Part shown: positions 48,301 to 64,000 of the stretch, piece after piece | Numbering within the stretch: position 1 is the stretch's first letter | How the letters are laid out: every line of letters starts with the position of its first letter | Assembly (NCBI GenBank): GCA_947184155.2 | Contig: CAMXCT020001768.1 | Span: 62,001 to 126,000, forward strand | Origin: Cladocopium goreaui | Taxonomy: Eukaryota; Sar; Dinophyceae; Suessiales; Symbiodiniaceae | Direction: 5' to 3' | DNA: 64,000 bases | The notes under the pieces: model-generated | Told to the model about the DNA's origin: nothing | The model's database searches: none | Seen by the model: only the letters and a program-made list of their open reading frames with translations | Translations under genes and position numbers: made by a program

Positions 48301-51300
48301 GAGGGTAATATATGTAATTATATATATATACATAGGATATTAATGTTTATCTCCATATATATATATATATGTATATATACATAGGATATACATGTTAGTC
48401 ATAACCAGAGGGTACTCCATTTATCTCCGTTTCATAGGTGAAACCATTTTTTTTGGCCTGGCGGAGATTCCAGGTTCATTGTGGTCGCGGCACCTGGTTG
48501 CCGGGTTTGGAAAAAATCCGTGCCATCGATTTTTTCCACACAAAAACTGGACATTTGGTGGCAAGCCCACGTATTTTCAGACACACCCAAGAGTTATATA
48601 AGATGTTATAAGAATCTTTTTGGCATACCTGCTACATGACGTTTTCAACATCTTAAAAGCAAAATCAATGTACCCTCTGGTAAACTAACATAGCTATTGA
48701 ACATGACCATTTATAGTGAGTTTTCCCATTCAAAATGGTGATTTTCCATAGTCATGTTAAATTACCAGAGGGTAACTATGCCAGCAAATGAAAATGATCA
48801 CCTTTCGCATCCCCTAAAAAAGCCAAAAAAGCAACCATTACCCTCTGGTCTTGTAGCAGGTTGCTCTGGTATGTACCCTCCAGTAAATTAACAGTTCGAC
48901 CCTGGGAGTCATCCGGGTTGGAAGATTAGTTTCCTCTAAAAAATGGTGATTTTCAGGGTCTATGTTAATTTACCAGAGGGTATGCCCCCTTTTGTTCCAT
49001 GATCTACCACCATTTAAGAGAGGCTTTCTGTACGATTTCCATCGCCACCTCCGCTGATTTATATACTCTAGTTATCTCTAGTTGATGTAAAATATCAAAT
49101 TGTACGTCTATATTGCATGATATTCCCGGAAACTTGTAGAAAATTGTAAGATTCTTGGTTTAAAGGCCATAAATCTAGTTGATTTACATACATCCTGGAT
49201 CCTACTATGGAAATCCAATAAATTATTAGATGTCCATAGTAGGATATATGTAAATCAACTAGATTTATGGCCTTTAAACCAAGAATCTTACAATGTGAGG
49301 CCCGCCGTTCGATATCTAAGTTGGGGTTCACATAACTCCAATGTCACTATGGTTTATGGTACGCAAATAACGAACTAGTTACTGGGGCTAACTTGTTAAC
49401 CAATGTTCACATCACAACGGGGGGCCTTACTTTGTACAATTTTGTACTTTCAAGCCGCAACCCAAGGCTCGACCCCAAGTGGTGTCATCCGACTTTATCC
49501 GGAGCCCCCAGCCTCGCGGATGCCTGCTCTGCACGATTTTCTTGGAGTTTTTTTTCGGGGAAAACGAAGGGAACATGGTTAGTTTAATAAAGGATGGGGC
49601 CCCCAAGATAGACAAGTTGCCCTATTTCAGTGGCTTAATTCTATGGTTTATGGTAGATATATATATATATATATATTATAATGAACTAGTTTTCATGGGG
49701 GTTTTGTCATGGTTTATGAAGCAGCAAAAAAAACTGGGGGGGCCGGGGCCCATCCTGTAGGGGTTAGCAACTCATCCCCTTTTCTCACCAACTCCCGGAT
49801 GGTCTCGCAGTCGACGGCACGTCGGCACTGGGTCCCATGTGTCCCATGGCACTGGAGTGATTTTTCGCGACCGGGACGAATCATCGGAATTAAAAGCTGG
49901 TTTCAATAGTGGCTTACCCGGCCTGGTAAACTGTTACATAACTATGGAAAATTACTATTTGAATAGGCAAATCAACTATAAATTGGACATTTTCTATAGC
50001 TATGTTAGTTTACCAGAGGGTAATAGGGATAAGAGTGGGACAATGATGGAATAACTTGGATGTTAATGGATGGAAACTATCAAACATGTGGCTAAATTCG
50101 AAGGGTTAGTAAGGGAAATTATCCCCAAAAAAAGCCGAACTTTTCAGGTTAGTGAACTATTGTCAGACACATGTTGGAAAATGATGATTTGACCATGGAA
50201 AACTGGGATTTAACATGATTTAACCAATGAAGAGTCATGGACACTTGATTCCTCATGTTTTCCTTTGAAAAGGGGATTCCTTGTCTTCAAAACTGTCCCC
50301 GTTTTGGCTTGGATGTGATGAAAAACATGTCTGGAATCTGTTTGTGGGGGATTCTTGAAGGAACATCTTGAGGGAATTTCGTTATTCCAAGGTTTCACGG
50401 ATCATCGGTTTTTACGAACCAATTTTGGGATCTTTTTGGGATGATGTCTCCCGATCAATGGGTCATCCCACACAGATTTTTGCTTAAATGAATGTCAGAA
50501 GTGCTTCTGAATGTCATCGTAAAGCAATAGCCCCGAAAGTAAAACAGCCTGTCAACAATCATCAACCCACAAATAGAAAAACACGTTGGACATCTGGACA
50601 TGTTTACCTGATTTTTTTGGAGGAAACATCATATGTGTTTCACATCCATTCACATCCCATACCCTCTGGTAAACTGTTACATAAGTATGGAAAATCACCA
50701 TTCTTGATGGGTAATAATCAACTATTTCTATGGCAATTTTCAATAGCAAACTGTAACAAATTACCAGAGGGTATATACTCCATTTCATCGGTGAACTCAT
50801 TTTTTCGTGCCTGGAGAAATTCAATTCATTCGTAAAGTCTCATCATTTATTTCACATCCATTCAGATCCTATACCCTCTGGTAAACATATAAAAAACGTT
50901 GGAAAATCACCATTTTTGGTGGGTAAATCAACTATTTCGACTGGGCCATTTGCAAGTTCGCAAACTGTCAAATTACCAGAGGCTACATCATATGTCTACA
51001 ATGTGAGGCCCCCCAGTGATGTTTGTTGGTTAACAAAAGCCCCAGTAACTAGTTCGTTATAAGTACCATAAACCATAGTGACATTGGAGTTATTTGCACC
51101 AACTTAGATATCTTGGGGCTTGGGGGCCTCACATATTAGGTGTTTCCATTCAGATCCGGGGGGGTACCCATGGCTTTCCATGGCTTCCTCCCGCCAAGGA
51201 TTTGGTCGAGCGCCTGAAATCGGGCGCGGCCAATGGACCCGCGGGAGCCAGCTTGGACTTGTGGCCCGTGCAGGTGTGAGAAATCGATGGGTCAAGCGAC

Positions 51301-54300
51301 CGCTGTTTTTCTCTGGTTATGTCAAAATAGCGAACTGGAACATGGCCATTGAAATAGTTGATTTACCTATGACAAATGGTGATTTTCCATAGTTATGTAA
51401 TAGTTAACCAGAGGGTAGATTCACTATATGAATTTGGCAGGTATCGTGGTGAATTATCCCATTAATAATGGTTAATAGTGATGAATAGTGATTTATCTCT
51501 TGCATAGTAATAGTGATTAATGATCGTCATAGCTTAAAAGATCGTGGTTAGTAGTGATTTTCATCCATAGAAAAATACTTTTACCACTATGAATCACTAA
51601 CAGTTATCCCATATTAATAATGGTCAATAGACTAATAGCGATTTACTTTTTGCTATCAATGCTTAATTTTTGGTAGCTATCCAAGATTCACCATATGAAT
51701 GCGCCATTTTTTTCTCGATGTTGGGGCAGATTGCGATTTGTATTTTTTTTTTGTTTCCATTTTAATGATTGAAGTTAGATATCCATGTTTGCATCTGCAG
51801 TTGTGTCAGGTTTTACGTCACCAGAGTAGTTGTTTTTGGGTTGGGCCTTTGGACTGGGACCTTTTTGTAGTGAATCATAGAAGTTGTTGGCACCCAATTC
51901 CAGGCTTGCTCCAGCCATAGGACAATTTTATGGATTCTGGATACCAGTATGATCAATGACATGGGAAAATTGGGTGGTTTTTCATGTGGTTTTTCTACCT
52001 CTTAAGATCTCTAGATATTCAGATAAGATATAGATAACATTAATATTCCCAGATGCGAACCATGGTGCTGGAATATGCACACCTACATTTACCCCATAAA
52101 TGACCCCAATGTTAGCATATATACCATACATGGAGCATATGGGATTAACATATAGATAACTAGATAACATATAGATAACATATAGATAACATATAGATAA
52201 CATATAGATAACATATAGATAACATACAGATAACTAGATCACATTTATGATATTTTTTCCACTACGTCAAATGATATCGCCATATTAATCACGGTTGGTT
52301 TCCCTTTCGCCACGAGGTGCTGCCGGCTGCCGGTGGTCTGATGGGTCGAAAGGAGGGAGCACTTTGGAGGCGGCGCCGGCGGCGCGGCTGGAAATTGCTG
52401 AGGTTTTTAGCAACAAAAGGGGAACGAATCATGAGTTAAACTGAAGCAACTTATCAGCCATTTCCATCCATTTCCAAGTTTTCTGAGGTTTCAAAAAAGA
52501 GACTTTTCCGAAGAAAAGGAGAACATCATGAACATCATGGGAAACTGAAGCAATGAACATGGGGAAAATGGTGAATATTTAGGGACATCTTGGGACAAGA
52601 ATCAACATCTTGGTGTAGCCAATACAACTGCTGTGTACAAATACCCTCTTGTAAACTAACATAGCTATTGAAAATGGCAATTTTTAGTGTTAAACATGGT
52701 GATTTTCCATAGCTATGTTAGTTTACCAGAGGGTATGTCGTTACTTTCAACGCGATTTGTTTCGGAATTTCACGGGATGCTGATGCCTCAATCTGGCAGA
52801 AAACTCTGGGCTCGACTGACAATTGGGTAGCCCATTCCATCCATGGGTTAATCATCATTAATTGTCCACATTAAAATGACAATTTGTGGGGTATACCTCA
52901 TTTTTAGATACCTATGTAGAGTCCTCATGAATTCTTCGAGATTGCTTGCTGCACCAGCCTAAGACAGCTGCACCCTGATGATAAGCTACAACAACACCTA
53001 TAAATAGTCCTTATGTTTTTCCAGGTAGCCTCTGGCAATCAAACGTGGCAATCGGAGATCCCCTATAATTAAGTGGATCAACTATCAATGGGAGATTTCC
53101 ATTGCCACGTTGGAGGATAAGGTTGGTTCATTTTTCTCGTGAAACTGGGTCTCAACATTGACAGGGGTGGCCCAGCTTTTACGACCCGCCGCCTTCTCCT
53201 GGCAGGCGCGGTGAACAGACACTGATCATGGGCATTCTGAACATCACCCCGGAGCCGCACGGCTGGGATGTGAAGGGGATCAATTCGCAGCATGGTCAAA
53301 GGTGAAGATTGGAACGGCCATGGTAACCAACACCATGACTGTTACAAGTGGTTTTACTTTCAAGAAGAGGAACCTGGAGGTTGCTTCCCTCACGAGTCAT
53401 ATCGAGTCCAAAGTCATGGAACCGCAGGAAAGTCATGGAACCGCAGGAAGGCAAAAACGGGGTTTGGATCAAACTTAGCCCAACAACTCGACATACCCTC
53501 TGGTAAACTAACATAGCTATTGAAATGGCCATTTATAGTTGATTTACCCATTGAAAATGGTGATTTTCCATAGTTATGTTAGTTTACCAGAGGGTAATTT
53601 TCAGATCACAAAGTAAGAAACATCTGTCAGATTCCCAGCCTTTGCCTTTTGTGGGTGGCGCTCCTACTTGGTGCATTCCTGGGATAGGACATAGGCCAGT
53701 GAGAACATCCCCACTGAGATGAATGGGTTATCCATGATTAATCCATCCAGGATTATTGGTTAATCATGGTTACCCTCTGGTAAACGTATACAAAAAACTA
53801 TGGAAAATCACCATTTGTCATAGGTAAATCCACTATTTCGACTGGGCCATTTTCCAGTTCGCTATTTTGACATAACCAGAGGGTAATCCATGCCCCAAGG
53901 CCCATCCAACCCCCACCCCCTTGATCACTCGAGCTCTGGCCACCTGGGCCACCTGGGCCATGCCCCGTAGGATTCATTCAGCGACGGAGGCGATCGTTTT
54001 GAGACAACAGCAGCGGTCGGAGTCTGAGGAATGGCCAGTGATTGGCCAGTGCCAGAAACGTGACGTTTGAAGATGTGGAAAACCTTACCCTCTGGTAAAC
54101 TGTTACATAACTATGGAAAATCACCATTTTCAATGGGTAAATCCACTATAAATGGCCATTTTCAATAGCTATGTTAGTTTACCAGAGGGTAAAAAGGGCC
54201 GCCATGGGGGAAAACGGAGGAACGCCGGAAATGGCTATGATGATCTAATGTGGTTAAAACATGTTAAAACAATGCCATTTTTACCACCCATGGGAATGGA

Positions 54301-54480
54301 TTATACAAAACAATGCCATAAACCATCCCCCAAATCACTATTAATCACTATTAACCACCACTATCCCATGATGGCCATGTGCTAAACTCATCCCACATGG
54401 CCAAACGTCGAAAACGTCGCCGAGTCGTCCCCGACGATTTCCATCAGGTTCAAGCCGCCAAGGAGATGATCTCTGCGCGG
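42339..54480 (+). CDS. HPPK-DHPS: HPPK-DHPS bifunctional folate enzyme (gene span, 3' part outside window)
   Basis: Twelve small exons joined on matching phase give an almost complete HPPK domain and the first part of DHPS. HPPK pyrophosphorylates 6-hydroxymethyl-7,8-dihydropterin; DHPS then condenses it with p-aminobenzoate to dihydropteroate. Motifs in order: VALGSNVGDR, GVELLRTSSLYST, DQPAFLN, KRIEDDLGR, RGPRVIDLDM (the DxD metal-binding pair), PHLLMHERDFVLVPMAE, then the DHPS start MGILNITP and DSFSDGGD. HPPK-DHPS fusions are usual in plants and apicomplexans. Five inferred 5' splice sites are GC or GA (GC in exons 3, 7, 8 and 12, GA in exon 10) and seven are GT. Remaining DHPS exons must lie past 64000, beyond a satellite and retrotransposon. 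The initiator Met and any targeting peptide were not located. Confidence 0.85.
42821..42886 (+). CDS. HPPK-DHPS: HPPK-DHPS exon 2
   Basis: CCGCAG|G to AC|GTCGGG. Encodes LRHLSRSIKSLVHLEGVELLR, the first HPPK helix and strand. Confidence 0.8.
43243..43306 (+). CDS. HPPK-DHPS: HPPK-DHPS exon 3
   Basis: GACAG|G to a GC-type site. Encodes SSLYSTKAQYVSDQPAFLNA, the pterin-site loop. Two GC sites, three bases apart, are possible at the 3' edge (after GCA or after GCC). Confidence 0.8.
43413..43550. mobile_element. TIR element, TATCTGGGTAA family
   Basis: TATCTGGGTAAATTT and AAATTTACCCAGATG ends; second copy of the element at 33947. Confidence 0.7.
43590..43719. mobile_element. TIR element with hybrid ends
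   Basis: Left TAGCCTCTGG, right CCAGGCCGGGTA; 130 bp. Confidence 0.75.
43725..43832. repeat. 10-bp tandem repeat, ATCCCATTAA
   Basis: About ten copies alternating ATCCCATTAA and ATGCCATTAA. A few copies also sit at 46515-46560. Confidence 0.9.
44809..44915. mobile_element. palindromic TIR element, CCCTCTGG family
   Basis: 107-bp complete copy; only 23 bases separate it from the next copy. Confidence 0.85.
44939..45057. mobile_element. palindromic TIR element, CCCTCTGG family
   Basis: Left TACCCTCTGG, right CCAGATGGTA; uses the GTTATGACTAACATAGCC variant arm. Confidence 0.8.
45192..45274 (+). CDS. HPPK-DHPS: HPPK-DHPS exon 4
   Basis: Follows CTCTCCCCGCAG. Encodes RLADLQGLLSDFKRIEDDLG and R; 5' site GTGCCT. 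Confidence 0.75.
45370..45545. repeat. 11-bp tandem repeat, TATATATGATC
   Basis: About eleven tandem copies after an irregular AT tract. Confidence 0.9.
45672..45844. mobile_element. chimera of two CCCTCTGG-family copies
   Basis: One copy lacking its left end (GTCAAAATAGCTATGG...GATTTTCTATGG) runs directly into a second (GGTAAACATACAAAAAGC...CCAGAGGGTA), as if one inserted in or recombined with the other. Confidence 0.6.
46276..46405. mobile_element. TIR element, GATGGGGCCCC family
   Basis: CTACAGGATGGGGCCCCCC and GGGGGCCCCACCCTCTAG ends, internal TATAAACC / AACTAGTTCGTTATA blocks shared with 4117 and 50998. Confidence 0.65.
46430..46504. mobile_element. partial CCCTCTGG-family element
   Basis: Only the right two thirds remain, ending ACATAACCAGAGGGTA. 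Confidence 0.6.
46611..46667 (+). CDS. HPPK-DHPS: HPPK-DHPS exon 5
   Basis: CCCCAG|G to CA|GTGGGG. Encodes PGVRRGPRVIDLDMVAVG with the catalytic Asp-Leu-Asp. The exon starts about 10 bases after an ACCAGACTGG element end. Confidence 0.85.
47042..47145. repeat. hairpin, CAATGGATTGGTTT
   Basis: CAATGGATTGGTTT..GGGGAAAATCTTAACCGGAAA is complementary to TTTCCGGTTAAAATTTTCCC..AAACCAATCCATTG; loop about 35 bases. Confidence 0.8.
47194..47233 (+). CDS. HPPK-DHPS: HPPK-DHPS exon 6
   Basis: CTGCAG|G to CAG|GTGCGA, encoding RVLNITEGQYPLQ. This spaces the DLD motif and the PH..HER motif as expected. Confidence 0.7.
47714..47766 (+). CDS. HPPK-DHPS: HPPK-DHPS exon 7
   Basis: Encodes VPHLLMHERDFVLVPMA and two bases of Glu; the HER..VL motif contributes ATP-binding residues in HPPKs. 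GC-type 5' site GCCGAA. Confidence 0.8.
48171..48306. mobile_element. TIR element with hybrid ends
   Basis: Left AGACCCGGCCTGG, right CCAGAGGGTA; 136 bp. Confidence 0.7.
48671..48774. mobile_element. palindromic TIR element, CCCTCTGG family
   Basis: Complete 104-bp copy. Confidence 0.85.
48874..48982. mobile_element. palindromic TIR element, CCCTCTGG family
   Basis: Left TACCCTCCAG, right CCAGAGGGTA; unusual CGACCCTGGG / CAGGGTC inner arms. Confidence 0.7.
49143..49294. repeat. large inverted repeat (~65-base arms)
   Basis: ATTGTAAGATTCTTGGTTTA at the left is matched by TAAACCAAGAATCTTACAAT at the right. Arms are nearly perfect over 60+ bases with a ~20-base loop. The right end runs straight into the GAGGCCC element at 49290. 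Confidence 0.85.
49290..49436. mobile_element. TIR element, GAGGCCCCC family
   Basis: ACAATGTGAGGCC at the left, GGGGGGCCTTACTTTGTA at the right. HPPK exon 8 starts 31 bases downstream. Confidence 0.65.
49467..49503 (+). CDS. HPPK-DHPS: HPPK-DHPS exon 8
   Basis: Encodes LDPKWCHPTLSG, the HPPK C-terminal W.HP.L segment. Phases fit both neighbours if the 5' site is GC (GCCCCC). Short, so less certain. Confidence 0.6.
49591..49760. mobile_element. TIR element, GATGGGGCCCC family
   Basis: AGGATGGGGCCCCCAAG at the left, GGGGCCCATCCTGTAG at the right, with a (TA)n insert. Confidence 0.65.
49915..50022. mobile_element. TIR element with hybrid ends
   Basis: Left TACCCGGCCTGG, right CCAGAGGGTA; 108 bp. 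Confidence 0.8.
50660..50773. mobile_element. palindromic TIR element, CCCTCTGG family
   Basis: 114 bp, perfect ends. Confidence 0.85.
50872..50985. mobile_element. palindromic TIR element, CCCTCTGG family
   Basis: Left TACCCTCTGG, right CCAGAGGCTA. It and the copy at 50660 are both preceded by ATTCACATCC/ATCCATTCAGATCC-like sequence, so the pair may be a segmental duplication. Confidence 0.75.
50998..51138. mobile_element. TIR element, GAGGCCCCC family
   Basis: ACAATGTGAGGCCCCCC and TGGGGGCCTCACATATTAG ends. The interior (AGCCCCAGTAACTAGTTCGT) is inverted relative to the copy at 49290. Confidence 0.75.
51199..51273 (+). CDS. HPPK-DHPS: HPPK-DHPS exon 9
   Basis: Exactly 25 codons, GCCAAG|G to CAG|GTGTGA, encoding DLVERLKSGAANG...LDLWPVQ, the HPPK end and linker to DHPS. 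Confidence 0.65.
51308..51417. mobile_element. CCCTCTGG-family element, left end eroded
   Basis: Left end TTCTCTGG, right end CCAGAGGGTA. Starts 34 bases after HPPK exon 9. Confidence 0.7.
51460..51660. repeat. dispersed AATAGTGAT-rich segment
   Basis: Contains GGTTAATAGTGATGAATAGTGATTTATC and related pieces that match the satellite monomer at 62.5-64 kb without tandem order. A reverse-complement piece (AATCACTATTAATCACTATT) is at 54341. Confidence 0.6.
52134..52232. repeat. 12-bp tandem repeat, ATAACATATAG
   Basis: About seven copies of ATAACATATAGA. Preceded by a single arm of the CCATACATGGAGCATATGGG hairpin family. Confidence 0.9.
52642..52735. mobile_element. palindromic TIR element, CCCTCTGG family
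   Basis: Shortest complete copy (94 bp): a central deletion; left end TACCCTCTTG. Confidence 0.8.
53219..53251 (+). CDS. HPPK-DHPS: HPPK-DHPS exon 10
   Basis: Encodes TLIMGILNITP, the DHPS first-strand signature. The 3' site is AACAG at 53218. An alternative AG at 53205 would require a different phase. The 5' site is GA type (CCG|GAGCCG). Confidence 0.75.
53494..53596. mobile_element. palindromic TIR element, CCCTCTGG family
   Basis: 103-bp copy, essentially consensus. Confidence 0.85.
53771..53885. mobile_element. palindromic TIR element, CCCTCTGG family
   Basis: 115 bp; perfect ends; ends 85 bases before DHPS exon 11. Confidence 0.85.
53971..54015 (+). CDS. HPPK-DHPS: HPPK-DHPS exon 11
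   Basis: CGTAG|G to GCG|GTCGGA. Encodes DSFSDGGDRFETTAA, which completes the TPDSFSDGG motif of DHPS with the preceding exon. Confidence 0.85.
54086..54191. mobile_element. palindromic TIR element, CCCTCTGG family
   Basis: 106 bp; perfect ends; starts 70 bases after exon 11. Confidence 0.85.
54448..54480 (+). CDS. HPPK-DHPS: HPPK-DHPS exon 12
   Basis: Encodes VQAAKEMISAR, the first DHPS helix that precedes the DIGGEST motif. The next exon is not in the window. GC-type 5' site GCGCTG. Confidence 0.65.
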
Positions 54481-54534
54481 GCGCTGAGCCGAAGAAAGCC
54501 GCCGGTTGAAGTGTCCCCGGGGAGAACTCAATGA

Positions 54535-54733
54535 TGTTTTGGTGGATTTATAGTCTAATTTATAGTGATTAATAGTGATTATAGTCTAATTTATAGTGAT
54601 TAATAGTGATTATAGTCTAATTTTTAGTGATTATAGTCTAATTTTTAGTGATTAATAGTGATTATAGTCTAATTTATAGTGATTAATAGTGATTATAGTC
54701 TAATTTTTAGTGATTAATAGTGATTATAGTCTA
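54535..54733. repeat. satellite, 31-bp unit (left of the retrotransposon)
   Basis: About six units of ATTTATAGTG-ATTAATAGTG-ATTATAGTCTA, built from 10-bp subunits, with some units shortened. The array is interrupted at 54734 and resumes at 62498. Confidence 0.9.
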
Positions 54734-54810
54734 AGATAGTTCCTTGAACGGTTTGTGAGAGAGATTCAGTGTTTAAATGCGGCTCATTGCTCTTTAGGCT
54801 CTCAGGTTTC
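54734..54810 (+). repeat. split direct repeat A1
   Basis: 77 bp, identical to A2 (62166-62242) except one G/T change. Begins AGATAGTTCC, ends CTCTCAGGTTTC. It should hold the promoter and 5' untranslated region. Confidence 0.9.
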
Positions 54811-54823
54811 AGGTGCTGTTTGC

Positions 54824-55540
54824 ATGTCTTGTGCTAAGTGTCGGCAAGCAGCTTCTGCCGATCCTGATACCTGGTGCACAGGGTGTAGCGCTTGGGAGGC
54901 TTTAAGTGGAGAGCTGACTGCACCTTGGCACTCTCCAGCGCTGCGACATTTCGCGAGCGAGCTGGTCATTGGGTGTGTCAAGTCGGTGAGGGCGCTGAGA
55001 GGGATCTCGAGCAGCCTACACAGCGCTGGCACCCGCCGTGCGGCTGTGGGTCTAAACCGATCTGGCAGTCCAGCTCCCATTGCCAGGCCCCCTGGCACCA
55101 GGCTATTGCTGCCTCCTCCGCCGCCTGTGCCGGTGAAAGAGCAGCTTGAAGCTTCTAGTTACGAGGAAGAGTCTGAGGAGGAGACTGAAGAGGACGAGCC
55201 GGTTACGGGTACGGTTGCAAAGGCACCACCAGCAGTACCCCGCACCTCTGGAGCACGGTCTCCCCAGCGTGATCGAGACCCTCGGATAACTGAAGCTCGT
55301 TCCCCTCACCGTGAGCGGGAGCATCAGCGCAAGCGTGAGCACAGTGAAGGAGGAGGAGATCATACAAGGAAGAAGAAGAAGAAAAAGAAAAGAGGCCATC
55401 GAGCAGGTAGGAAGCACCCCAGACTCTACCGTGCTATAGAGGAGCCTTCTACCAGGGTTCATAGACGAACCCCCGGGACCCACTACGACCGGGCGACCGA
55501 GAGGTCGTCACGTGCAGGAGGTCACAGAGACCATCAATGA
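54824..55540 (+). CDS. retrotransposon ORF1: zinc-ribbon-like, Arg/Lys-rich protein
   Basis: First in-frame ATG is at 54824; 238 codons. The N-terminus has CMSCAKC and WCTGCSAW (CxxCxxC ... CxxC), a plausible zinc knuckle. It is followed by a Pro-rich part, a run of Glu/Asp, then Arg/Ser/Lys-rich sequence with a poly-Lys block, which suggests nucleic-acid binding. Its TGA overlaps the ORF2 start as ATGA (55537-55540), so ORF2 may be translated by termination-reinitiation. Codons upstream of 54824 are also open but lack an ATG. A nucleocapsid-like role is inferred only. Confidence 0.65.
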   Translation: MSCAKCRQAASADPDTWCTGCSAWEALSGELTAPWHSPALRHFASELVIGCVKSVRALRGISSSLHSAGTRRAAVGLNRSGSPAPIARPPGTRLLLPPPPPVPVKEQLEASSYEEESEEETEEDEPVTGTVAKAPPAVPRTSGARSPQRDRDPRITEARSPHREREHQRKREHSEGGGDHTRKKKKKKKRGHRAGRKHPRLYRAIEEPSTRVHRRTPGTHYDRATERSSRAGGHRDHQ

Positions 55541-57405
55541 CGGAGGAACCTGTGTTTGGCACACTGTACTCGGCCGACGACGACGCGTTATGGTCCTCGT
55601 TGGTTATTCCTCGTCAGGTGGTAATGGAGGTGAAGGATTTGGTGCCCCCAGGAGAGGAAATAGAAGAAGGTTGGACCGCTTTTTGGGTGACAGACGTCCG
55701 CGTTGGTGCCTCTTTAGGGATAGAATTGGAGGCAAAGTTTGTGGGCACAGCCGTGAAGTCACTTGCAACCAAGTTGTCAAGCTTGTTCAATCGAAGGGTT
55801 GGGATTTTGCACCTTTGCCCAACCTATCCTTGCCCAATGGACACGCCGGGTGTGCATGGCCACGTCAACAAGTTCAGGTTGATACAAGTGGAGGAGTTCG
55901 GGGCCGACTACGTGTCAGCCCATGGACAACGCCAACTCAAGAAATGGTCAGGACTGGACGAAGAGGACGACGCAGAGGCCGATGGGCCGCCTGGAGGAGA
56001 GACATCAGATGGAGGAATCCGCCGGCCTGCCTTGAGGCCAGCACGTGCCGCTGTCCCCAAAGCTGGGGCCAGCTTGGGCAAGGATGTTGCCGCGAAAGAG
56101 GAAGATGCTCCGAGACGGGTAGGAGTAGGCACTCCTCCATTGGAGACTATCTCACGAGAAGAGCTGAGGAGGAAGCTAGAGAAGTCGCGACAGAGGATCC
56201 TTGGCGAAAAGCACAGGGATGGTGGCGCTGGCCGTGCGGCCGTGCGCAGCAACCAACCATTGGAGGTTCATTCAAGCGACTCTGCATCGCCCGGCTATTC
56301 CGCCTCTGTGTTGGACGATGCGCTGGTCCCGGGGATCGAGCTGCCGCCTGCACAGGAGGAGCGCAAGCAGCGGGTTGGCCGAGAGAAGCGGAGGAGCCGG
56401 AGCAAGAAGGCTTCTGGACGCCCCTCCAAGGAGGGTCTGCTGGCTATAAAAGATGGTACTATGACAACCTTGCAGAGCCAGCTAGTGCAGAGAGCCTCGG
56501 AGTCAGCGCAGAAGATGAGGAAACGCAAGAAGGAGAAGGACAAGAAGGAGAGCTCCAGCAAAGGGCTCTTGAAGATCCTTACCAAGGCCATGAAGGGGAA
56601 GAAGGAGGATTCCAAGAAAAGGAAAAGGAAGAAGAAGCGTTTGAAAGAAGAAGGAGGTTCCCCCGGCGGAGGATCCGACGACTCGGGGACAGGCAGTTCC
56701 GGGTCAAGTTACACAGCCTCGTCGAGCGAGTCATCGGGCGAGGCGGAGAAGGACTTGGATCCCCCTTTGAGGAAGCGTTCCAAAACCAAGCCAGGGTCGG
56801 TTTTACAGATGTTGGTCAACCATGCCAGGGCTCAGCTCGACACCACCAACAAAGTTTCAGCAAAAGAAGAAGACAACCCGACAATGGGGGTGAGAATCGC
56901 GAGCTATTTCAGCATTGTGATTCGACCCCAGCTGACTGGCAGTATGAATCAACAGAGGGAGATGCACCACTTGAGCAACGCGATAGATTTGCTCCGACAG
57001 GGGCAGCTGGATCGGTTGGGAGATCTTTTGGCTTCCCGTTTTATCAGCATTCATCAGTCGCTGATAGACGGGAATTGGAGCTCAGCCCGATTTTTGGAAA
57101 TCATGCCCATGGAGGAGATGTCTGCAGCCGACAGTTCAGTGGTACTGTCAGCGCGGAAGCATGCCAAGCTGAATGCCAAGGTGACCAACCCCGATCTGTC
57201 GAACACCTGGCGTGGACCCGCAAAAGGAAAAGGGAAGAACAAGTGGAGCACGTGGCACGAGAGCGAGGGCACCGCCGAGGGCAAAGGAAAAGGCAAGAAA
57301 GGAGGAAAAGGCAAGGGCAAACCGCGTTCATGGTGGACGAGCGCATGGCAGGGAGATGCAGATCCCGAGCAAGGCAAGAAAAAGGAGAAACCGCAGGACA
57401 AGTGA
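55537..57405 (+). CDS. retrotransposon ORF2: Gag-like protein
   Basis: 622 codons. The first ~110 residues look globular (LYSADDDALWSSLVIPRQVV, then hydrophobic strands). The middle is acidic and then very Lys-rich, with SKKRKRKKKRLKEE and a Ser/Gly linker. A second globular part, about residues 445-560, is Leu-rich helical (SNAIDLLRQGQLDRLGDLLA), a capsid-like position and character. The tail has KGKGK/GKGKKGGKGKGK repeats. This order suits a Gag with RNA-binding tail. No family domain is recognised with certainty. It overlaps the open Pol frame throughout; Pol is in the -1 frame relative to it. Confidence 0.6.
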   Translation: MTEEPVFGTLYSADDDALWSSLVIPRQVVMEVKDLVPPGEEIEEGWTAFWVTDVRVGASLGIELEAKFVGTAVKSLATKLSSLFNRRVGILHLCPTYPCPMDTPGVHGHVNKFRLIQVEEFGADYVSAHGQRQLKKWSGLDEEDDAEADGPPGGETSDGGIRRPALRPARAAVPKAGASLGKDVAAKEEDAPRRVGVGTPPLETISREELRRKLEKSRQRILGEKHRDGGAGRAAVRSNQPLEVHSSDSASPGYSASVLDDALVPGIELPPAQEERKQRVGREKRRSRSKKASGRPSKEGLLAIKDGTMTTLQSQLVQRASESAQKMRKRKKEKDKKESSSKGLLKILTKAMKGKKEDSKKRKRKKKRLKEEGGSPGGGSDDSGTGSSGSSYTASSSESSGEAEKDLDPPLRKRSKTKPGSVLQMLVNHARAQLDTTNKVSAKEEDNPTMGVRIASYFSIVIRPQLTGSMNQQREMHHLSNAIDLLRQGQLDRLGDLLASRFISIHQSLIDGNWSSARFLEIMPMEEMSAADSSVVLSARKHAKLNAKVTNPDLSNTWRGPAKGKGKNKWSTWHESEGTAEGKGKGKKGGKGKGKPRSWWTSAWQGDADPEQGKKKEKPQDK

Positions 57406-60400
57406 GAAGTCCAGCGGACATTGCTTGGGGGTCGACAAATTCTAATGAGGCGCTGGGTGCAGTACCCGTGCAGCCGGCCTTGTTTAAAGAGGTGGTGAGC
57501 CAGTGCACTAGCTACAGTAAACTTGGGTGTGCGCTGTGCTGGCTGCTGAGGGCCGGGCATGGCAGCGCCTTGTTGGGCGATGAATTGAAAGAGCTGGTTG
57601 ACGACTGGTTTTCAATGAGTGTCGCCAAGGCTCGGTTGGGCCGTCGAGGACGACATGGCTCGACTTTCCCTTTGAGAGAGGGGGACTTGCATGGTGTGTT
57701 AGACCGGATCCGTTCACTTTCCTTGCAGGAAGCTACAGCTGAAGGGTTTGTGGCATGCTGGAGGATTGAGGCTTGGACATATGTTACCGCTTGCTGCTTG
57801 AACCGTGTCGCTGGGTTTGCACCCGTGCTGACTCAGGGACGTTGGACGTCAATTGAACGTCGTGCGATTGGCAGCATTGCAGCCGCAGTGCGACGCCGCT
57901 GCGCTGGTGACGTAGGGTTGGAGCCGTTGAGCGAGATGGCGTGGCAAAAGGAGCTGTGCGGCAAACAGGTTAGTTATTCAGGGGAGGAAATCTCTGTCTG
58001 TTATCAGTTATCTTGGGATCAGGTAGTACCTGCATTACCACCAGAAGAGCATGGTGGCTGTGTCAACGCGTTGGATTGGGTAGGTCCTGCAACCCGTGAT
58101 TTCCTCCTTCATCCCTCCAAGCTTCTCAGAGATCCAGACACAGTAGAGTTGCCTAGGTTGCCGGGTAAGGTCCATGTGGTAGAGGCTGATCGAATGAGGA
58201 TTGCTTTTGAATTAGTCCGTAGAAATATTTGCGATTGGGTTCCGCTGGAAAAGGTTTATTCAATAAATGGGGTGAAGATTCTTAATGGCTTGTTTGGGGT
58301 TAAGAAATCAACAACCTTGAATGACGGACGCCCTGTACTTCGGCTCATCATGAACTTGACAGGGTCAAATTCAACGCAGTTGCAGTTGGAAGGAGGCTGC
58401 CGTTCACTTCCTATGATAACTAGCTGGCAGAGCATCATTTTGGAAGGAGATTCTCAACTTGAATTGTTTCAAAGTGATATGTCTTCGGCTTTTTACCTGT
58501 TCCGAATTCCCGATTGCTGGAAACCACATCTAGCTTTCAACATCATTGCCTCTGGATTGGATCTAGGACTTGACGATGATCGACAATTTGCGCTTTCATG
58601 TGCAGTGATTCCAATGGGATGGCTTAATTCAGTAGGAGTGATGCAGGAGATTTCTGAGAACTTACTGAAACAAAAGAAGCTCAATAGACTCAACCAAGTC
58701 ATGCGGGGTAAACATTTGCCTATTTGGTTCAATCAATTACTCACAGAAGCAACTACAGCAGAACGATGTTGGTGGCATGTATATCTTGACAATTTTTGTG
58801 CTGGAGAAAGAATTGACCCCTATCATCCAGGGGTATCTGGCAAAATGTGCCATGATGCGGCAGAGAATGCGTGGCGTGATGCAGGCGTAGTCTCTAGTGA
58901 GAAGAAACGGATTTCAGCTGCGTCCAGGGTAGCAGAACTGGGTGCTGAAATTGATGGAGAATTAAAAACTCTGGGGGTATCCACGGAGAAGGTTTGCAAA
59001 ATTGCGGTGGCTACTCTTTGGCTGCTGAAGCAACGTTTGTTGAACAAGAAACAGCTTCAGATTCTAGCGGGGCGCTGGGTGTTCGTCTTGCAATTTCGAC
59101 GTCCAGCCATGGTGATTTTTGACAAAGTGTGGAAGGTGATTGGTGGTTCAATTAGAGTGACTAGGGATTTGCGGCTTGCAGCCAAACGAGAGATGTTTAG
59201 TGTGATGTTGTTGTCACCGCTGCTTCACTGCAACCTGGGTGCAGAGTGCAGTGAAGCGGTGGTTGCAACTGATGCTTCTGAAACAGGTGGCGCTGTGGGG
59301 ATTTCGTCTGAATTGACTAGCGTTGGCCGAGATTTTGTGGCAACGGCAGAAACAATGGAGCAACTTGATGAGGCACTAGCGGCGCCAATTTTAATTATTA
59401 GTCTTTTTAACGGCATAGGTGGAGCCTTTCGTTGTTATGACATTGCAGGAGTTTTGCCCATGGGTCGGATTGCAGTGGACATTGACAAAGCGGGTAACCG
59501 CATTACAGAGAAGCGATGGCCTGGAACTGAGATTTATTTGGACATTAGGAGCATTGATGCAGAAATAGTGCAGAGTTGGGCTCGCCGCTATCTTCGCATA
59601 GCGGAAGTGCATGTTTGGGCCGGCTTTCCATGCAATGATCTCTCGTCGGCACGGGCAGGCCGCATGAATCTGGACGGGCCAGCCAGTATTTTATTTTGGG
59701 AAGTTCCCAGGGTGTTGAAACTGGTGAAAGACAATTTTGGAGAACATGTTATTGTCAAGTATGTGTTGGAGAATGTTGCAAGCATGGACCGAGAAGCCAC
59801 TGAAGAGATTAGCACAGAAATGGGGAGCACCCCCTACTTACTTGACCCCGTCCAAGCGGTGCCGATGCGGCGGCCTCGCTACTGTTGGAGTTCAGAAATA
59901 CTTGAAAGCGTTTTTCCTGACATTCAAGTTTTCCCAAAAGCATACTGGAAAGAAGTTGTAGCAGAGGCAGAGTATCCGCTCACTGAACAATGGCTTGAAC
60001 CCGATCATGAATGGAAAGGGGAGCAACAACATGCCGTGTTTCCAACATGTATGAAATGTGTTCCGAAACTTTCTCCTCCTTATAAACCTGCTGGGATTGA
60101 ACGGTGTTCGCCCAGTGTGTTGGAGCGCTGGACAGAAGACAAATTCAGATATCCGCCATATCAATACCGGCCCGAGTTTATCATCTCTACACCTCATACC
60201 TGGAGGTTGCTGAGCGCTTCAGAAAAAGAGCTTCTGATGGGGTTCGGTTTCGGACACACTCAGGTAGCATGGGCAGCTTCTGCGGCAAAACAGAATCCAC
60301 AAGGATTTGATGACGCTAGGCATACTGGATTGGGAGAATCTTTTAGCATCATCTCTTTTGCAATTTGGGCTGTGGTTTTGAGCAAACACTTTTTGCCAAC

Positions 60401-60968
60401 GGTCCCCTTTCGACATTTGGTTGGGCGCATGGGGTTGGCGCCCGGATTCCGTGCACCTTTACGGTTCACGGCACCTTTGAAACGTTGTTTGCAATATGGT
60501 TGTCTTTCAATCCCCCCGGCAGTTTACAATGATGGTATGGGAAAACTGAATAGGCTTTTACTTCGCAAGACTAATCACACAGGGTCTGACGTAAGGTTGG
60601 CATCAGGTGAAATCATTGGGGGAAAAGTTTTCCCTCGGCAATCTGTAGCGTCGGCATGGTGGCTCTGGCAGGACATTTTCTCAAAGCGTTGGGAATTCAA
60701 GGCTCATATTAATGTGTTGGAGATGCGTGCAATTTTATTGGGGGTAAAGCATCAGATTGAGAAACTGGGTTTTGCTGATAAACGTATTGTCCAACTCTCT
60801 GACTCTTTTGTTTGCATTAGCATAATTTCAAAGGGGCGCACCAGCAGTGATCAACTTTCCAGGGTGTTGCGGATAATCAACTGTTTATTGTTGGCACATG
60901 GGTTACAACTTGTCATGGGGCATGTAGACTCCTCTGACAACCCGACGGATAAGGGGTCAAGATTGTGA
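57330..60968 (+). CDS. retrotransposon Pol: RT, RNase H and nested C5-cytosine methyltransferase
   Basis: The frame is open from 55512, but coding character starts near the end of ORF2. 57330 is the nearest in-frame ATG, and -1 frameshifting from ORF2 is the alternative. Domains: unknown N-terminal part to ~58190; RT ~58200-59110, with DMSSAFYLF (motif A, Asp at 58476), IPMGWLNSVGVMQ (motif B) and WWHVYLDNF (motif C, 58782-58793, YLDN instead of YxDD); first RNase H strand VVATDASETGGAVG (Asp at 59271); methyltransferase ~59385-60395, with SLFNGIGG (motif I), GFPCNDLS (motif IV, Cys at 59631), LENVAS (VI), PMRRPRYCW (VIII) and GLGESFSI (X); then the rest of RNase H, with HINVLEMRA (Glu at 60720), LSDSF (Asp at 60801) and HVDSSDNPTDKGSR. 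Confidence 0.85.
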   Translation: MVDERMAGRCRSRARQEKGETAGQVRSPADIAWGSTNSNEALGAVPVQPALFKEVVSQCTSYSKLGCALCWLLRAGHGSALLGDELKELVDDWFSMSVAKARLGRRGRHGSTFPLREGDLHGVLDRIRSLSLQEATAEGFVACWRIEAWTYVTACCLNRVAGFAPVLTQGRWTSIERRAIGSIAAAVRRRCAGDVGLEPLSEMAWQKELCGKQVSYSGEEISVCYQLSWDQVVPALPPEEHGGCVNALDWVGPATRDFLLHPSKLLRDPDTVELPRLPGKVHVVEADRMRIAFELVRRNICDWVPLEKVYSINGVKILNGLFGVKKSTTLNDGRPVLRLIMNLTGSNSTQLQLEGGCRSLPMITSWQSIILEGDSQLELFQSDMSSAFYLFRIPDCWKPHLAFNIIASGLDLGLDDDRQFALSCAVIPMGWLNSVGVMQEISENLLKQKKLNRLNQVMRGKHLPIWFNQLLTEATTAERCWWHVYLDNFCAGERIDPYHPGVSGKMCHDAAENAWRDAGVVSSEKKRISAASRVAELGAEIDGELKTLGVSTEKVCKIAVATLWLLKQRLLNKKQLQILAGRWVFVLQFRRPAMVIFDKVWKVIGGSIRVTRDLRLAAKREMFSVMLLSPLLHCNLGAECSEAVVATDASETGGAVGISSELTSVGRDFVATAETMEQLDEALAAPILIISLFNGIGGAFRCYDIAGVLPMGRIAVDIDKAGNRITEKRWPGTEIYLDIRSIDAEIVQSWARRYLRIAEVHVWAGFPCNDLSSARAGRMNLDGPASILFWEVPRVLKLVKDNFGEHVIVKYVLENVASMDREATEEISTEMGSTPYLLDPVQAVPMRRPRYCWSSEILESVFPDIQVFPKAYWKEVVAEAEYPLTEQWLEPDHEWKGEQQHAVFPTCMKCVPKLSPPYKPAGIERCSPSVLERWTEDKFRYPPYQYRPEFIISTPHTWRLLSASEKELLMGFGFGHTQVAWAASAAKQNPQGFDDARHTGLGESFSIISFAIWAVVLSKHFLPTVPFRHLVGRMGLAPGFRAPLRFTAPLKRCLQYGCLSIPPAVYNDGMGKLNRLLLRKTNHTGSDVRLASGEIIGGKVFPRQSVASAWWLWQDIFSKRWEFKAHINVLEMRAILLGVKHQIEKLGFADKRIVQLSDSFVCISIISKGRTSSDQLSRVLRIINCLLLAHGLQLVMGHVDSSDNPTDKGSRL
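59385..60395 (+). CDS. C5-cytosine DNA methyltransferase domain (within Pol)
   Basis: All core motifs for a functional enzyme are present in the canonical order I-IV-VI-VIII-X: SAM loop FNGIGG, catalytic Pro-Cys in GFPCNDLS, Glu of ENV, Arg-x-Arg in RRPRY, and the GESFS motif X. GFPCNDLS and LENVAS are closer to the DNMT3/Dcm style (PCNDLS is typical of DNMT3) than to maintenance DNMT1. No target-recognition domain is obvious beyond the ~150 residues between VIII and X. It transfers a methyl group from S-adenosylmethionine to cytosine C5. Host-derived DNMTs in dinoflagellate retrotransposons have been published (de Mendoza and co-workers, 2018, from memory). Confidence 0.85.
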
Positions 60969-61903
60969 TGAAATATGTCTTGCTCGCTGGCAGATTCAGC
61001 CGAGCAGAGCGGGCCAAGCGACGGGCTCGAATCAATCTTGATGACGCTGGATTGAGCGAAAAGACCAGAAGTCGATACTATGTGGCACTTAGAAAGTTGA
61101 TACCTTATTTTGAACAGGTCGAATCCCCGCAGCAGCTGGATGTTTGGATGTCACGCTGGGTCCGTCGAATGTGGAAAGACGGAGAGCCCTCACTCACAGT
61201 GGGGGATGGACTTAGTAGCTTGTCATTTTTTCAGCCCTGGACAAAAAGATTGGTACCACATGCCTGGCGTCTTTTCGCCACATGGCGAAAAATTGAAATT
61301 CCGAATCGCGCTCCTCCCTTGACAAAGCCAATCGTGTACAGCCTTTCTGCGTATGAGTGGCAGATGGGAAATTATGAGATGTCTTGCCTTTTGCTCCTTG
61401 GGTTTCACTGTTTACTCCGTACAGGAGAACTCCTCAAACTGCAGTGTTCCGATTTTAGTCTGGGAGCCCGTTCCGGAATTGTTGCTTTGAAGGATACCAA
61501 ATCAGGTCGTAGAAATAGTGTCAACGAAATGGTAAGCATTACAGACATTACAACGTTGGAAGTGGTGCGATGTTTTGTTGACAGGCGCCGAACAGCCAGG
61601 TCCTTGCACTGGACAATTTGGTCAGGTTCTTCTGCCCAGTTTCGAGTGCGTTTCAATCAGTTGATGAAGTTGTTTCATCTTGAGCATTTACTTTTTCGTC
61701 CTTACAGCCTCAGACGAGGAGGAGCAACTCTGACATTTCAACAATCCAAATCCATGGAGGCCACGCTCCTTCGTGGAAGGTGGGAGAGTAGTCGAGTTGC
61801 TAAACTTTATATCAATGATGCGTTATCTCACCTTCCTTCCATCAAAATGTCCGAAAAATCCCGTCGTATGCTTTTGAAATTCAATTTTGCGACACTTCAA
61901 TAA
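60968..61903 (+). CDS. retrotransposon tyrosine recombinase
   Basis: 311 codons from the ATG at 60968, which shares its A with the Pol stop (TGATG). N-terminal SAM-like helical part, then the catalytic core: LLRTGELLKL (first Arg), a KDTKSGRR lysine hairpin, PYSLRRGGATL (H/Y-x-x-R box; the usual His is Tyr here), GRWESSRVAKLYI (Trp at the His/Trp position and the Tyr nucleophile in LYI). This is the integrase of DIRS-order elements; it joins a circular DNA intermediate to the target without duplication. Confidence 0.85.
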   Translation: MKYVLLAGRFSRAERAKRRARINLDDAGLSEKTRSRYYVALRKLIPYFEQVESPQQLDVWMSRWVRRMWKDGEPSLTVGDGLSSLSFFQPWTKRLVPHAWRLFATWRKIEIPNRAPPLTKPIVYSLSAYEWQMGNYEMSCLLLLGFHCLLRTGELLKLQCSDFSLGARSGIVALKDTKSGRRNSVNEMVSITDITTLEVVRCFVDRRRTARSLHWTIWSGSSAQFRVRFNQLMKLFHLEHLLFRPYSLRRGGATLTFQQSKSMEATLLRGRWESSRVAKLYINDALSHLPSIKMSEKSRRMLLKFNFATLQ

Positions 61904-61932
61904 TGAAGCGTGGTCACTTTGTTGGGAAGCGT

Positions 61933-62165
61933 GGATAATGACTGGGAAATAAGAACTTCTTCAAATGCTGATTCCGAAATCGTGCATTTGTGTCTTCTGC
62001 TTGGAAGAAAATCATTCCCTGCATGGGGAAGGTACATAAGTCAGTTTCAAAGATGCCTGCAAGGGCATGGACGATAAAGATCTTTGAATTCAACAGGTCG
62101 AGACACGAGTCTCTTTTGCAAGACCTTCGTCTTGGCGGCATGAAAACAAGCTGAGAGCGAGCACA
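61933..62165 (+). repeat. split direct repeat B1
   Basis: 233 bp, one mismatch to B2. Begins GGATAATGACTGGG, ends GAGCGAGCACA directly against A2. Confidence 0.9.
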
Positions 62166-62242
62166 AGATAGTTCCTTGAACGGTTTGTGAGAGAGATTCA
62201 GTGTTTAAATGCTGCTCATTGCTCTTTAGGCTCTCAGGTTTC
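62166..62242 (+). repeat. split direct repeat A2
   Basis: 77 bp. B1-A2 recreates the junction that an end-to-end circle of the element would have (GCACA|AGATAG). Confidence 0.9.
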
Positions 62243-62251
62243 CCCCCTCTC

Positions 62252-62266
62252 CCTCCACAGTGGAGG
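62252..62266. repeat. 15-base palindrome at the A2-B2 boundary
   Basis: CCTCCAC-A-GTGGAGG, perfect 7-base stem. It lies in the 22-bp spacer between A2 and B2 and takes in the first two bases of B2. Confidence 0.8.
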
Positions 62267-62497
62267 ATAATGACTGGGAAATAAGAACTTCTTCAAATGC
62301 TGATTCCGAAATCGTGCATTTGTGTCTTCTGCTTGGAAGAAAATCATTCCCTGCATGGGGAAGGTACATAAGTCAGTTTCAAAGTTGCCTGCAAGGGCAT
62401 GGACGATAAAGATCTTTGAATTCAACAGGTCGAGACACGAGTCTCTTTTGCAAGACCTTCGTCTTGGCGGCATGAAAACAAGCTGAGAGCGAGCACA
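62265..62497 (+). repeat. split direct repeat B2
   Basis: 233 bp. Its end GAGCGAGCACA marks the right end of the element; satellite follows immediately. Confidence 0.9.
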
Positions 62498-64000
62498 ATT
62501 TATAGTGATTAATAGTGATTATAGTCTAATTTTTAGTGATTATAGTCTGATTTATAGTGATTAATAGTGATTATAGTCTGATTTATAGTGATGAATAGTG
62601 ATTATAGTCTAATTTATAGTGATTTATAGTGACTATGATGTTGGTGGATTTATAATGACAAATGATGTTGGTTGATTTATAATGATGTTTGTTAATCAAC
62701 TATAATTAGATGGTTGATTTATAGTCTAATTTATATAGAGTGATTTATAAGCCTATTCACTGTATTTATATCATATTTATGCTCAATGATGTTTTGGTGG
62801 ATTACTAGTCTGATTTATAGTGACCAATAGTGATGAATAGTGATTATAGTCTGATTTATAGTGATTAATAGTGATGAATAGTGATTATAGTCTGATTTAT
62901 AGTGATTAATAGTGATGAATAGTGATTATAGTCTGATTTATAGTGATTAATAGTGATGAATAGTGATTATAGTCTGATTTATAGTGATTAATAGTGATGA
63001 ATAGTGATTATAGTCTGATTTATAGTGATTAATAGTGATGAATAGTGATTATAGTCTGATTTATAGTGATTAATAGTGATGAATAGTGATTAGTCTGATT
63101 TATAGTGATTAGTGATGATTTAGTCTGATTTATAGTGATGAATAGTGATTATAGTCTGATTTATAGTGATTAATGATGAATAGTGATTATAGTCTGATTT
63201 ATAGTGATTAATAGTGATGAATAGTGATTATAGTCTGATTTATAGTGATTAATAGTGATGAATAGTGATTATAGTCTGATTTATAGTGATTAATAGTGAT
63301 GAATAGTGATTATAGTCTGATTTATAGTGATTAATAGTGATGAATAGTGATTATAGTCTGATTTATAGTGATTAATAGTGATGAATAGTGATTATAGTCT
63401 GATTTATAGTGATTAATAGTGATGAATAGTGATTATAGTCTGATTTATAGTGATTAATAGTGATGAATAGTGATTATAGTCTGATTTATAGTGATTAATA
63501 GTGATGAATAGTGATTATAGTCTGATTTATAGTGATTAATAGTGATGAATAGTGATTATAGTCTGATTTATAGTGATTAATAGTGATGAATAGTGATTAT
63601 AGTCTGATTTATAGTGATTAATAGTGATGAATAGTGATTATAGTCTGATTTATAGTGATTAATAGTGATGAATAGTGATTATAGTCTGATTTATAGTGAT
63701 TAATAGTGATGAATAGTGATTATAGTCTGATTTATAGTGATTAATAGTGATGAATAGTGATTATAGTCTGATTTATAGTGATTAATAGTGATGAATAGTG
63801 ATTATAGTCTGATTTATAGTGATTAATAGTGATGAATAGTGATTATAGTCTGATTTATAGTGATTAATAGTGATGAATAGTGATTATAGTCTGATTTATA
63901 GTGATTAATAGTAGTGATTATAGTCTGATTTATAGTGATTAATAGTGATGAATAGTGATTATAGTCTGATTTATAGTGATTAATAGTGATGAATAGTGAT
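62498..64000. repeat. satellite, 31-bp then 41-bp unit (right of the retrotransposon)
   Basis: The first ~320 bases are 31-bp-like and irregular. From about 62815 the unit is 41 bp: GATTTATAGTG-ATTAATAGTG-ATGAATAGTG-ATTATAGTCT, i.e. the 31-bp unit plus an extra 10-bp ATGAATAGTG. Roughly 28 very similar copies run to the window end, with a few deletions (about 63090-63180 and 63910). Confidence 0.95.

Follow-up and report, generated by a model that had tools for sequence, protein, structure and literature searches.

Does a DNA methyltransferase found between the catalytic motifs of a retrotransposon's ribonuclease H (RNase H) lie inside that domain, or is it appended next to it? Here we address this question in the dinoflagellate Cladocopium goreaui, in a stretch of 64,000 nucleotides (the window; contig CAMXCT020001768.1 of assembly GCA_947184155.2, positions 62,001 to 126,000), whose coordinates are used throughout. 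An intact retrotransposon spans about 54733-62498. It belongs to the SymbioDIRS-Dnmt3 group of DIRS-type retrotransposons, which carry a tyrosine recombinase, and every group feature that we tested was found in it. The computational evidence shows that a DNMT3-like cytosine-5 methyltransferase is nested within the RNase H of its polymerase protein (Pol), between strands 2 and 3 (Table 1).

Position of the methyltransferase within Pol

An initial annotation had placed the RNase H catalytic motifs on either side of a C5-methyltransferase with all key motifs, the first Asp and the Glu being more than 1.4 kb apart, and had read this as nesting rather than appending. All of these motifs lie where it put them, in a single open frame (55440-60968). 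TDASETGG starts at 59268, methyltransferase motif I at 59400, PC at 59628 and ENV at 59763, followed in the same frame by HINVLE at 60705, LSDSF at 60795 and HVDSSDNPTDKGSR at 60921. From the start of the motif with the first Asp to that of the motif with the Glu, the distance is 1437 nt. In the usual C5-methyltransferase numbering, motifs I, IV (PC), VI (ENV), VIII (RxR) and X are all present. Profile and fold matches identify the domain as DNMT3-like, in the same open reading frame (ORF) as the reverse transcriptase (RT). A Pfam scan of Pol, whose last domain is RNase H, gave PF00145 as the sole methyltransferase family. Pfam scans of the window copy found neither RT nor RNase H, and such a scan misses the nested architecture because it detects neither RNase H half.

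A relative without the insert locates it more closely. Besides the two protein searches described below, a third used a 336-residue query and admitted shorter proteins only (98 proteins, all listed). The insert-free protein, P0294, has 537 residues, comes from a Joint Genome Institute (JGI) metagenome and contains RVT_1 (E 3.6e-16) without a methyltransferase. It aligns with the window Pol in two collinear BLASTP blocks, residues 68-387 with 258-598 (E 2e-32) and 435-534 with 1053-1153 (E 7e-12), between which lie 47 residues in P0294 vs 454 in the window Pol; this alignment places the insertion within 59298-60659. Family profiles of the two RNase H parts both match P0294 (part 1 at residues 330-395, 1.1e-12; part 2 at 435-535, 1.7e-26; search space 1 for each), and the same eight letters, TDASETGG, occur within its uninterrupted RNase H, so the motif does align with RNase H. 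Both motifs, first-Asp and HIN-LE, were present by pattern in 81 of the 302 gathered proteins, with a spacing of 463-479 residues in 80 of these and 72 in P0294. The methyltransferase might instead be an appended domain that separates RT from an RNase H complete in itself, with TDASETGG not part of RNase H at all. The P0294 alignment and the part 1 profile match contradict this, as do the fold and the covariation described next, and we consider it very improbable.

Predicted fold and covariation of the RNase H halves

When part 1, the methyltransferase and part 2 were modeled together, RNase H strands 1-2 and 3 onward were predicted to fold together around the methyltransferase, with the insert joining the core sheet directly. 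The predicted order is that of the RNase H type 1 fold: strands 1-2-3, helix, strand 4, helix, strand 5, helix. Strands 1 and 2 were assigned from the secondary structure of the model, the P0294 alignment and covariation rather than from a whole-domain PDB match. Confidence is low within the connector that follows the methyltransferase, where the predicted local distance difference test score (pLDDT) falls below 50 at model residues 486-493 and 496-505. The columns of its NHTGSDVR motif (model residues 485-492) are mostly near-invariant in the family (alignment A1), and the motif looks like a conserved flexible contact between the methyltransferase and RNase H strand 3.

Foldseek and VIA returned only methyltransferases among the 50 matches listed for the whole model, and part 2 was therefore folded separately. 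Alone, it lost strand 3, and VIA matched it to RNase H1 minus its first strands. Foldseek gave no match to part 2 below E 0.001, the best (0.013) being an RNase HII; the RNase H reading of the isolated part is based on VIA. In a viral structure library, most of the matches listed were unnamed or were cytosine methyltransferases, a few others including a DNA polymerase and mRNA-capping enzymes, and they added nothing. Neither the model nor the profile and fold of part 2 predicts a second first-Asp strand pair after the methyltransferase, as an intact separate RNase H at that place would have.

Covariation was measured by mean-field coupling analysis of 118 sequences (effective number 104), in which 4646 eight-residue ladders linking one half to the other were scored. 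The top-scoring one joins residues 57-64 with 515-522, antiparallel, at a mean z of 1.60, and corresponds to the RNase H strand 2/strand 3 pairing, with the same register as in the model. When the halves were re-paired 40 times, no ladder scored above 1.06, and this particular ladder did not exceed 0.57. The pattern appears to favor joined RNase H halves, as support rather than proof: the sequences are modest in number, shared ancestry is lost as well on re-pairing, and the alignment has sequences in common with the one behind the model.

Conservation of the nested order

The arrangement recurs across the organism's own genome. A search of 1.17 Gb (6202 contigs) gave 1508 first-look candidates, of which 76 were scored. 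An unbroken alignment from the first to the last catalytic Asp of RNase H was obtained for 73 of the 76, and 73 of the 76 have no internal stop. The nested order is present in all 22 copies examined, including the window copy, as judged by alignment in 19 and by motif in 3. Among the 19 checked by alignment, 16 keep all RT, methyltransferase and RNase H positions; the other three carry one substitution each, with Asp for Glu in the RNase H of L015, Gly for Cys in the methyltransferase of L017 and Glu for Asp in RT motif A of L023. We found no support for an assembly chimera or a one-off insertion, and given the scored matches that span the whole arrangement, the constant order among copies and the same arrangement in proteins from other sources, its probability is close to nil. 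A chance motif was dropped as an explanation, as the arrangement recurs among both own-genome matches and protein relatives.

RT and methyltransferase distances correlate across 18 copies (r 0.89), showing that the two are co-inherited. The correlation between RNase H parts 1 and 2 is weak (r 0.27, reached in 15 of 999 permutations), part 1 being a 27-residue stretch.

Two protein searches contributed the best 120 of 314 and the best 120 of 359 matches (E 0.001 or better), giving 222 distinct proteins, among whose source labels are gene models named Skav, which we take to be Symbiodinium kawagutii. Ninety-three cover more than 85% of the stretch and are ungapped at the first Asp and at the Glu (alignment A3; alignment A1 holds 91 of them, without P0187 and P0202). 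The type 1 RNase H catalytic pattern D, E, D, D is complete in 89/93, and eight key methyltransferase positions are intact in 87/93. These proteins were picked for coverage that includes the methyltransferase and are uninformative on its constant presence, for which the motif-spacing count of 81 proteins is used instead. Residue counts per position omit gapped rows (e.g., 49 of 222 at the first Asp). No relatives were confirmed in collections of viral contigs and genome contigs.

The usual RT motif C is YxDD. In the window (58779-58793) it is YLDN, with Asn replacing the second Asp, and the same is true of 157 of the 158 homologs with a residue there; the insert-free P0294 has YIDD. A literature search found no paper linking YLDN with reverse transcriptase. 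A distant protein, P0290 (28% identity to the query), has YLDD, then SDACETGG and a C5-methyltransferase motif, LFAGIGG (PF00145), and is incomplete at its end. It may represent another, deeper lineage in which a methyltransferase occupies the corresponding place.

Proposed role of the nested enzyme

What would a methyltransferase do at this site? We think it probable that the DNMT3-like domain of this SymbioDIRS-Dnmt3 element entered the loop that joins RNase H strands 2 and 3, that the two RNase H parts still form one enzyme around it, active despite the insert, and that RT, RNase H and methyltransferase form one unit that methylates complementary DNA (cDNA) before insertion. RT would make DNA from RNA and RNase H would clear the RNA; once the product is double-stranded DNA, the methyltransferase would add CG methylation. 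The recombinase would then integrate the copy, which would join the genome already methylated, and entering in this state would be the benefit to the element. The accessible text of PMC5890265 reports that isolated methyltransferase domains of two SymbioDIRS-Dnmt3 copies produced CG methylation in yeast and that Ka/Ks (the ratio of nonsynonymous to synonymous substitution) was below 0.2 in the majority of domain comparisons. More tentatively, and with less confidence than the scheme above, the protein could be a two-in-one enzyme whose RNase H and DNMT3 domains are coupled through a closely shared core, methylation being licensed only after RNA clearance, with the duplex lying across both sites. 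Such an enzyme would mark copies as "self" in a heavily CG-methylated genome, and its placement would make the methyltransferase costly to lose.

Several observations weigh against pre-insertion methylation by a joined enzyme. P0294 is a single insert-free relative, distant (30%) and from a metagenome. The strand 1/strand 4 ladder does not stand out, its best rank at the expected offset being 26 of 4646, and the strongest single pair, 64-515 (z 5.1), is within the range of the re-pairings (up to 5.4). RNase H activity of the nested protein is a prediction from sequence and model, and with YLDN in place of YxDD the polymerase activity of the RT is putative. CpG observed/expected is 0.74 in the element vs 0.62 for window bases 1-54000; since the ratio is not lower in the element, no deamination footprint of self-methylation is seen. 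The same accessible text describes SymbioDIRS-Dnmt3 as without significant CG depletion, and reports that DNMT-bearing elements and DNMT-free DIRS and long interspersed (LINE) elements expanded similarly in these genomes.

The similar expansion would also fit a methyltransferase that is nested but retained mainly since it cannot be cleanly removed, most deletions breaking RNase H, and whose methylation is of little or no value to the element; the long motif spacing in 80 of 81 proteins points the same way. A passenger held by position could lose its Cys and its S-adenosylmethionine (AdoMet) site, and for this reason the kept catalytic residues (87/93) argue against it, as do the Ka/Ks values. 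We regard retention of this kind as unlikely. We give a similarly low probability to a methyltransferase that serves RNase H, clamping the hybrid or duplex from the strand 2-3 loop and gating RNase H cleavage, with methylation secondary. The modeled connection straight to the core sheet and the conserved, low-confidence connector just before strand 3 would suit such a role, but the catalytic residues of the methyltransferase are conserved and related isolated domains methylate CG in yeast. If pre-insertion methylation is correct, it would show how a retrotransposon came to build a DNA-methylating enzyme into its own replication machine. The system also allows a test of whether an element gains from methylating its own cDNA in a fully methylated genome. 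In itself, an RNase H whose strand 2-3 loop contains a whole enzyme is an unusual protein architecture.

Comparison with known systems

DNMT-bearing dinoflagellate retrotransposons were already known, as the initial annotation stated, in the form of SymbioDIRS-Dnmt3 (de Mendoza et al. 2018, PMC5890265). The accessible text describes a DNMT3-like domain in the Pol ORF with RT, a separate tyrosine recombinase ORF, A-coding-B-A-B repeats and many copies, all as found here. It gives two structures for the group, mentions distinct domain orders and, in that part, does not state that RNase H is split by the methyltransferase. No description of such a split was found in the literature searched, including the accessible portions of PMC6338049, PMC12344493 and PMC9998398; coverage was partial, and a prior description is possible. 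PMC11453091 contained none of the terms sought.

DIRS1-like elements have RT, RNase H, recombinase and a methyltransferase in common with this one (accessible parts of PMC3266345 and PMC3783388). Their methyltransferase is of the adenine type, as the initial annotation also noted, and follows RNase H, and they have inverted terminal repeats, whereas here it is of the cytosine type and nested, and the direct repeats are split. Pfam gives only PF00145 in Pol and thus no Dam-like adenine methyltransferase after RNase H. Among 14 listed inverted pairs of at least 30 nt in window 50000-64000, none has an arm inside 54733-62498, which speaks for the absence of DIRS1-like inverted termini or internal complementary regions of that length, shorter or diverged repeats being outside this test. 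A-pol-B-A-B repeats are reported for Ngaro in the available text of PMC3783388.

PARN and Hermes also contain a whole domain within an RNase H-like fold (PMC3985635, in part). As far as that text goes, the inserted domains are a nucleic-acid-binding one and an all-helical one, and, apart from the helices found there in RNases H2 and H3, it is comparatively uncommon for anything to be inserted between the first three strands; here an enzyme lies between strands 2 and 3. KnitGypsy-Dnmt3 likewise has DNMT3 in a retrotransposon Pol, but it is a charophyte Gypsy element and is described in the available text of PMC5890265 as an independent acquisition.

Layout of the element

Three successive ORFs lie in three frames: a gag-like ORF, the Pol open frame and a tyrosine recombinase starting from the ATG at 60968. 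The repeats of the window copy are ordered A-coding-B-A-B, and the element is embedded in an AT-rich tandem array, a 31-bp array up to 54734 and a related one from 62498.

Table 1 Features of the retrotransposon in window coordinates.
Feature	Position	Strand	Remarks
Left terminal repeat A1	54733..54810	+	77/78 identical to 62165-62242; adjoins 31-bp tandem array ending 54734
Pol-frame ORF	55440..60968	+	1842 aa; first ~650 codons overlap gag-like ORF in -1 frame
Gag-like ORF (frame 1)	55537..57405	+	622 aa plus stop
Reverse transcriptase and connection	58353..59243	+	Motif A FQSDMSSAF 58467, motif C VYLDN 58779; aligns with RVT_1-bearing P0294, E 2e-32
RNase H part 1: strands 1, 2	59244..59306	+	First catalytic Asp 59271-59273; model residues 42-52, 56-62; profile match to P0294
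DNMT3-like cytosine-5 methyltransferase domain	59373..60401	+	Between RNase H strands 2 and 3
Connector with NHTGSDVR motif 60573-60596	60402..60668	+	Conserved; low model confidence
RNase H part 2: strand 3 to last helix	60669..60965	+	Glu 60720, Asp 60801, Asp 60948
Tyrosine recombinase ORF	60968..61903	+	First ATG overlaps Pol stop as TGATG; PF00589 match
Repeat B1	61933..62166	+	233/234 identical to 62265-62498
Repeat A2	62165..62242	+	Pairs with A1, 77/78 identical
Repeat B2, right element end	62265..62498	+	Related tandem array starts at 62498

A second copy, L009 (G000:C3013:313500-323400), is 99.8% identical over 7443 bp, with 14 mismatches and one gap. Its flanks are unrelated, and this near-identity in a different setting points to recent movement of the element. 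No clear target-site duplication was seen at the window copy, where the test is weak because the target is a tandem array, or at L009, whose flanks could have at most TTA in common. L009 is A-coding-B only, without the A2-B2 tail, and has a stop within the RT-RNase H span; its shorter structure may reflect repeat recombination or assembly collapse. A tandem array with a 41-bp unit occupies 62800-64000, to the window end, and resembles the 31-bp array that the element entered. Rfam gave no match at the gathering score, and the gag-like ORF matched no Pfam family above cut-off.

The overlap of the Pol frame with gag was examined in 19 of the 22 copies (L011, L012 and L021 were dropped by a motif filter); given the near-identity of the window copy and L009, these amount to about 18 independent copies. 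In the Pol register, each copy has 0-6 stops vs 20-33 expected from synonymous gag shuffles, none of 300 shuffles being as low in any copy, and the third frame is near expectation. The reverse test in 18 copies (no stretch was available in L009) found no stop in the gag frame vs 4-8 expected, with the caveat that stop-free shuffles (one or more of 200) also occurred for two of these copies and that the third frame too was at or below expectation. The same relative frame is only mildly depleted in the RT-methyltransferase region (62.0 stops vs 69.1 expected). Residue identity in the overlapping frame is 0.228 vs 0.184 expected, higher in 91/91 pairs from 14 copies, and in the third frame 0.218 vs 0.189, higher in 85/91 pairs. 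A frame that is open while its residues are little constrained suggests an N-terminal extension of Pol or entry by frameshift.

The recombinase match to PF00589 (E 4e-4, 20.4 bits) is below the Pfam cut-off of 27.1. Its catalytic residues are nevertheless widely present, with R156 and K183 in 18/18 sequences, R254 and W277 in 17/18 and Tyr286 in 16/18; the two without Tyr286, L014 and L016, stop short of that position in the alignment. The overlap of the Pol stop with an ATG (60966-60970) reads TGATG in 6/19 copies and TAATG in 2/19, and the window ATG is in the recombinase frame. Coupled re-initiation of the recombinase at the Pol stop is possible.

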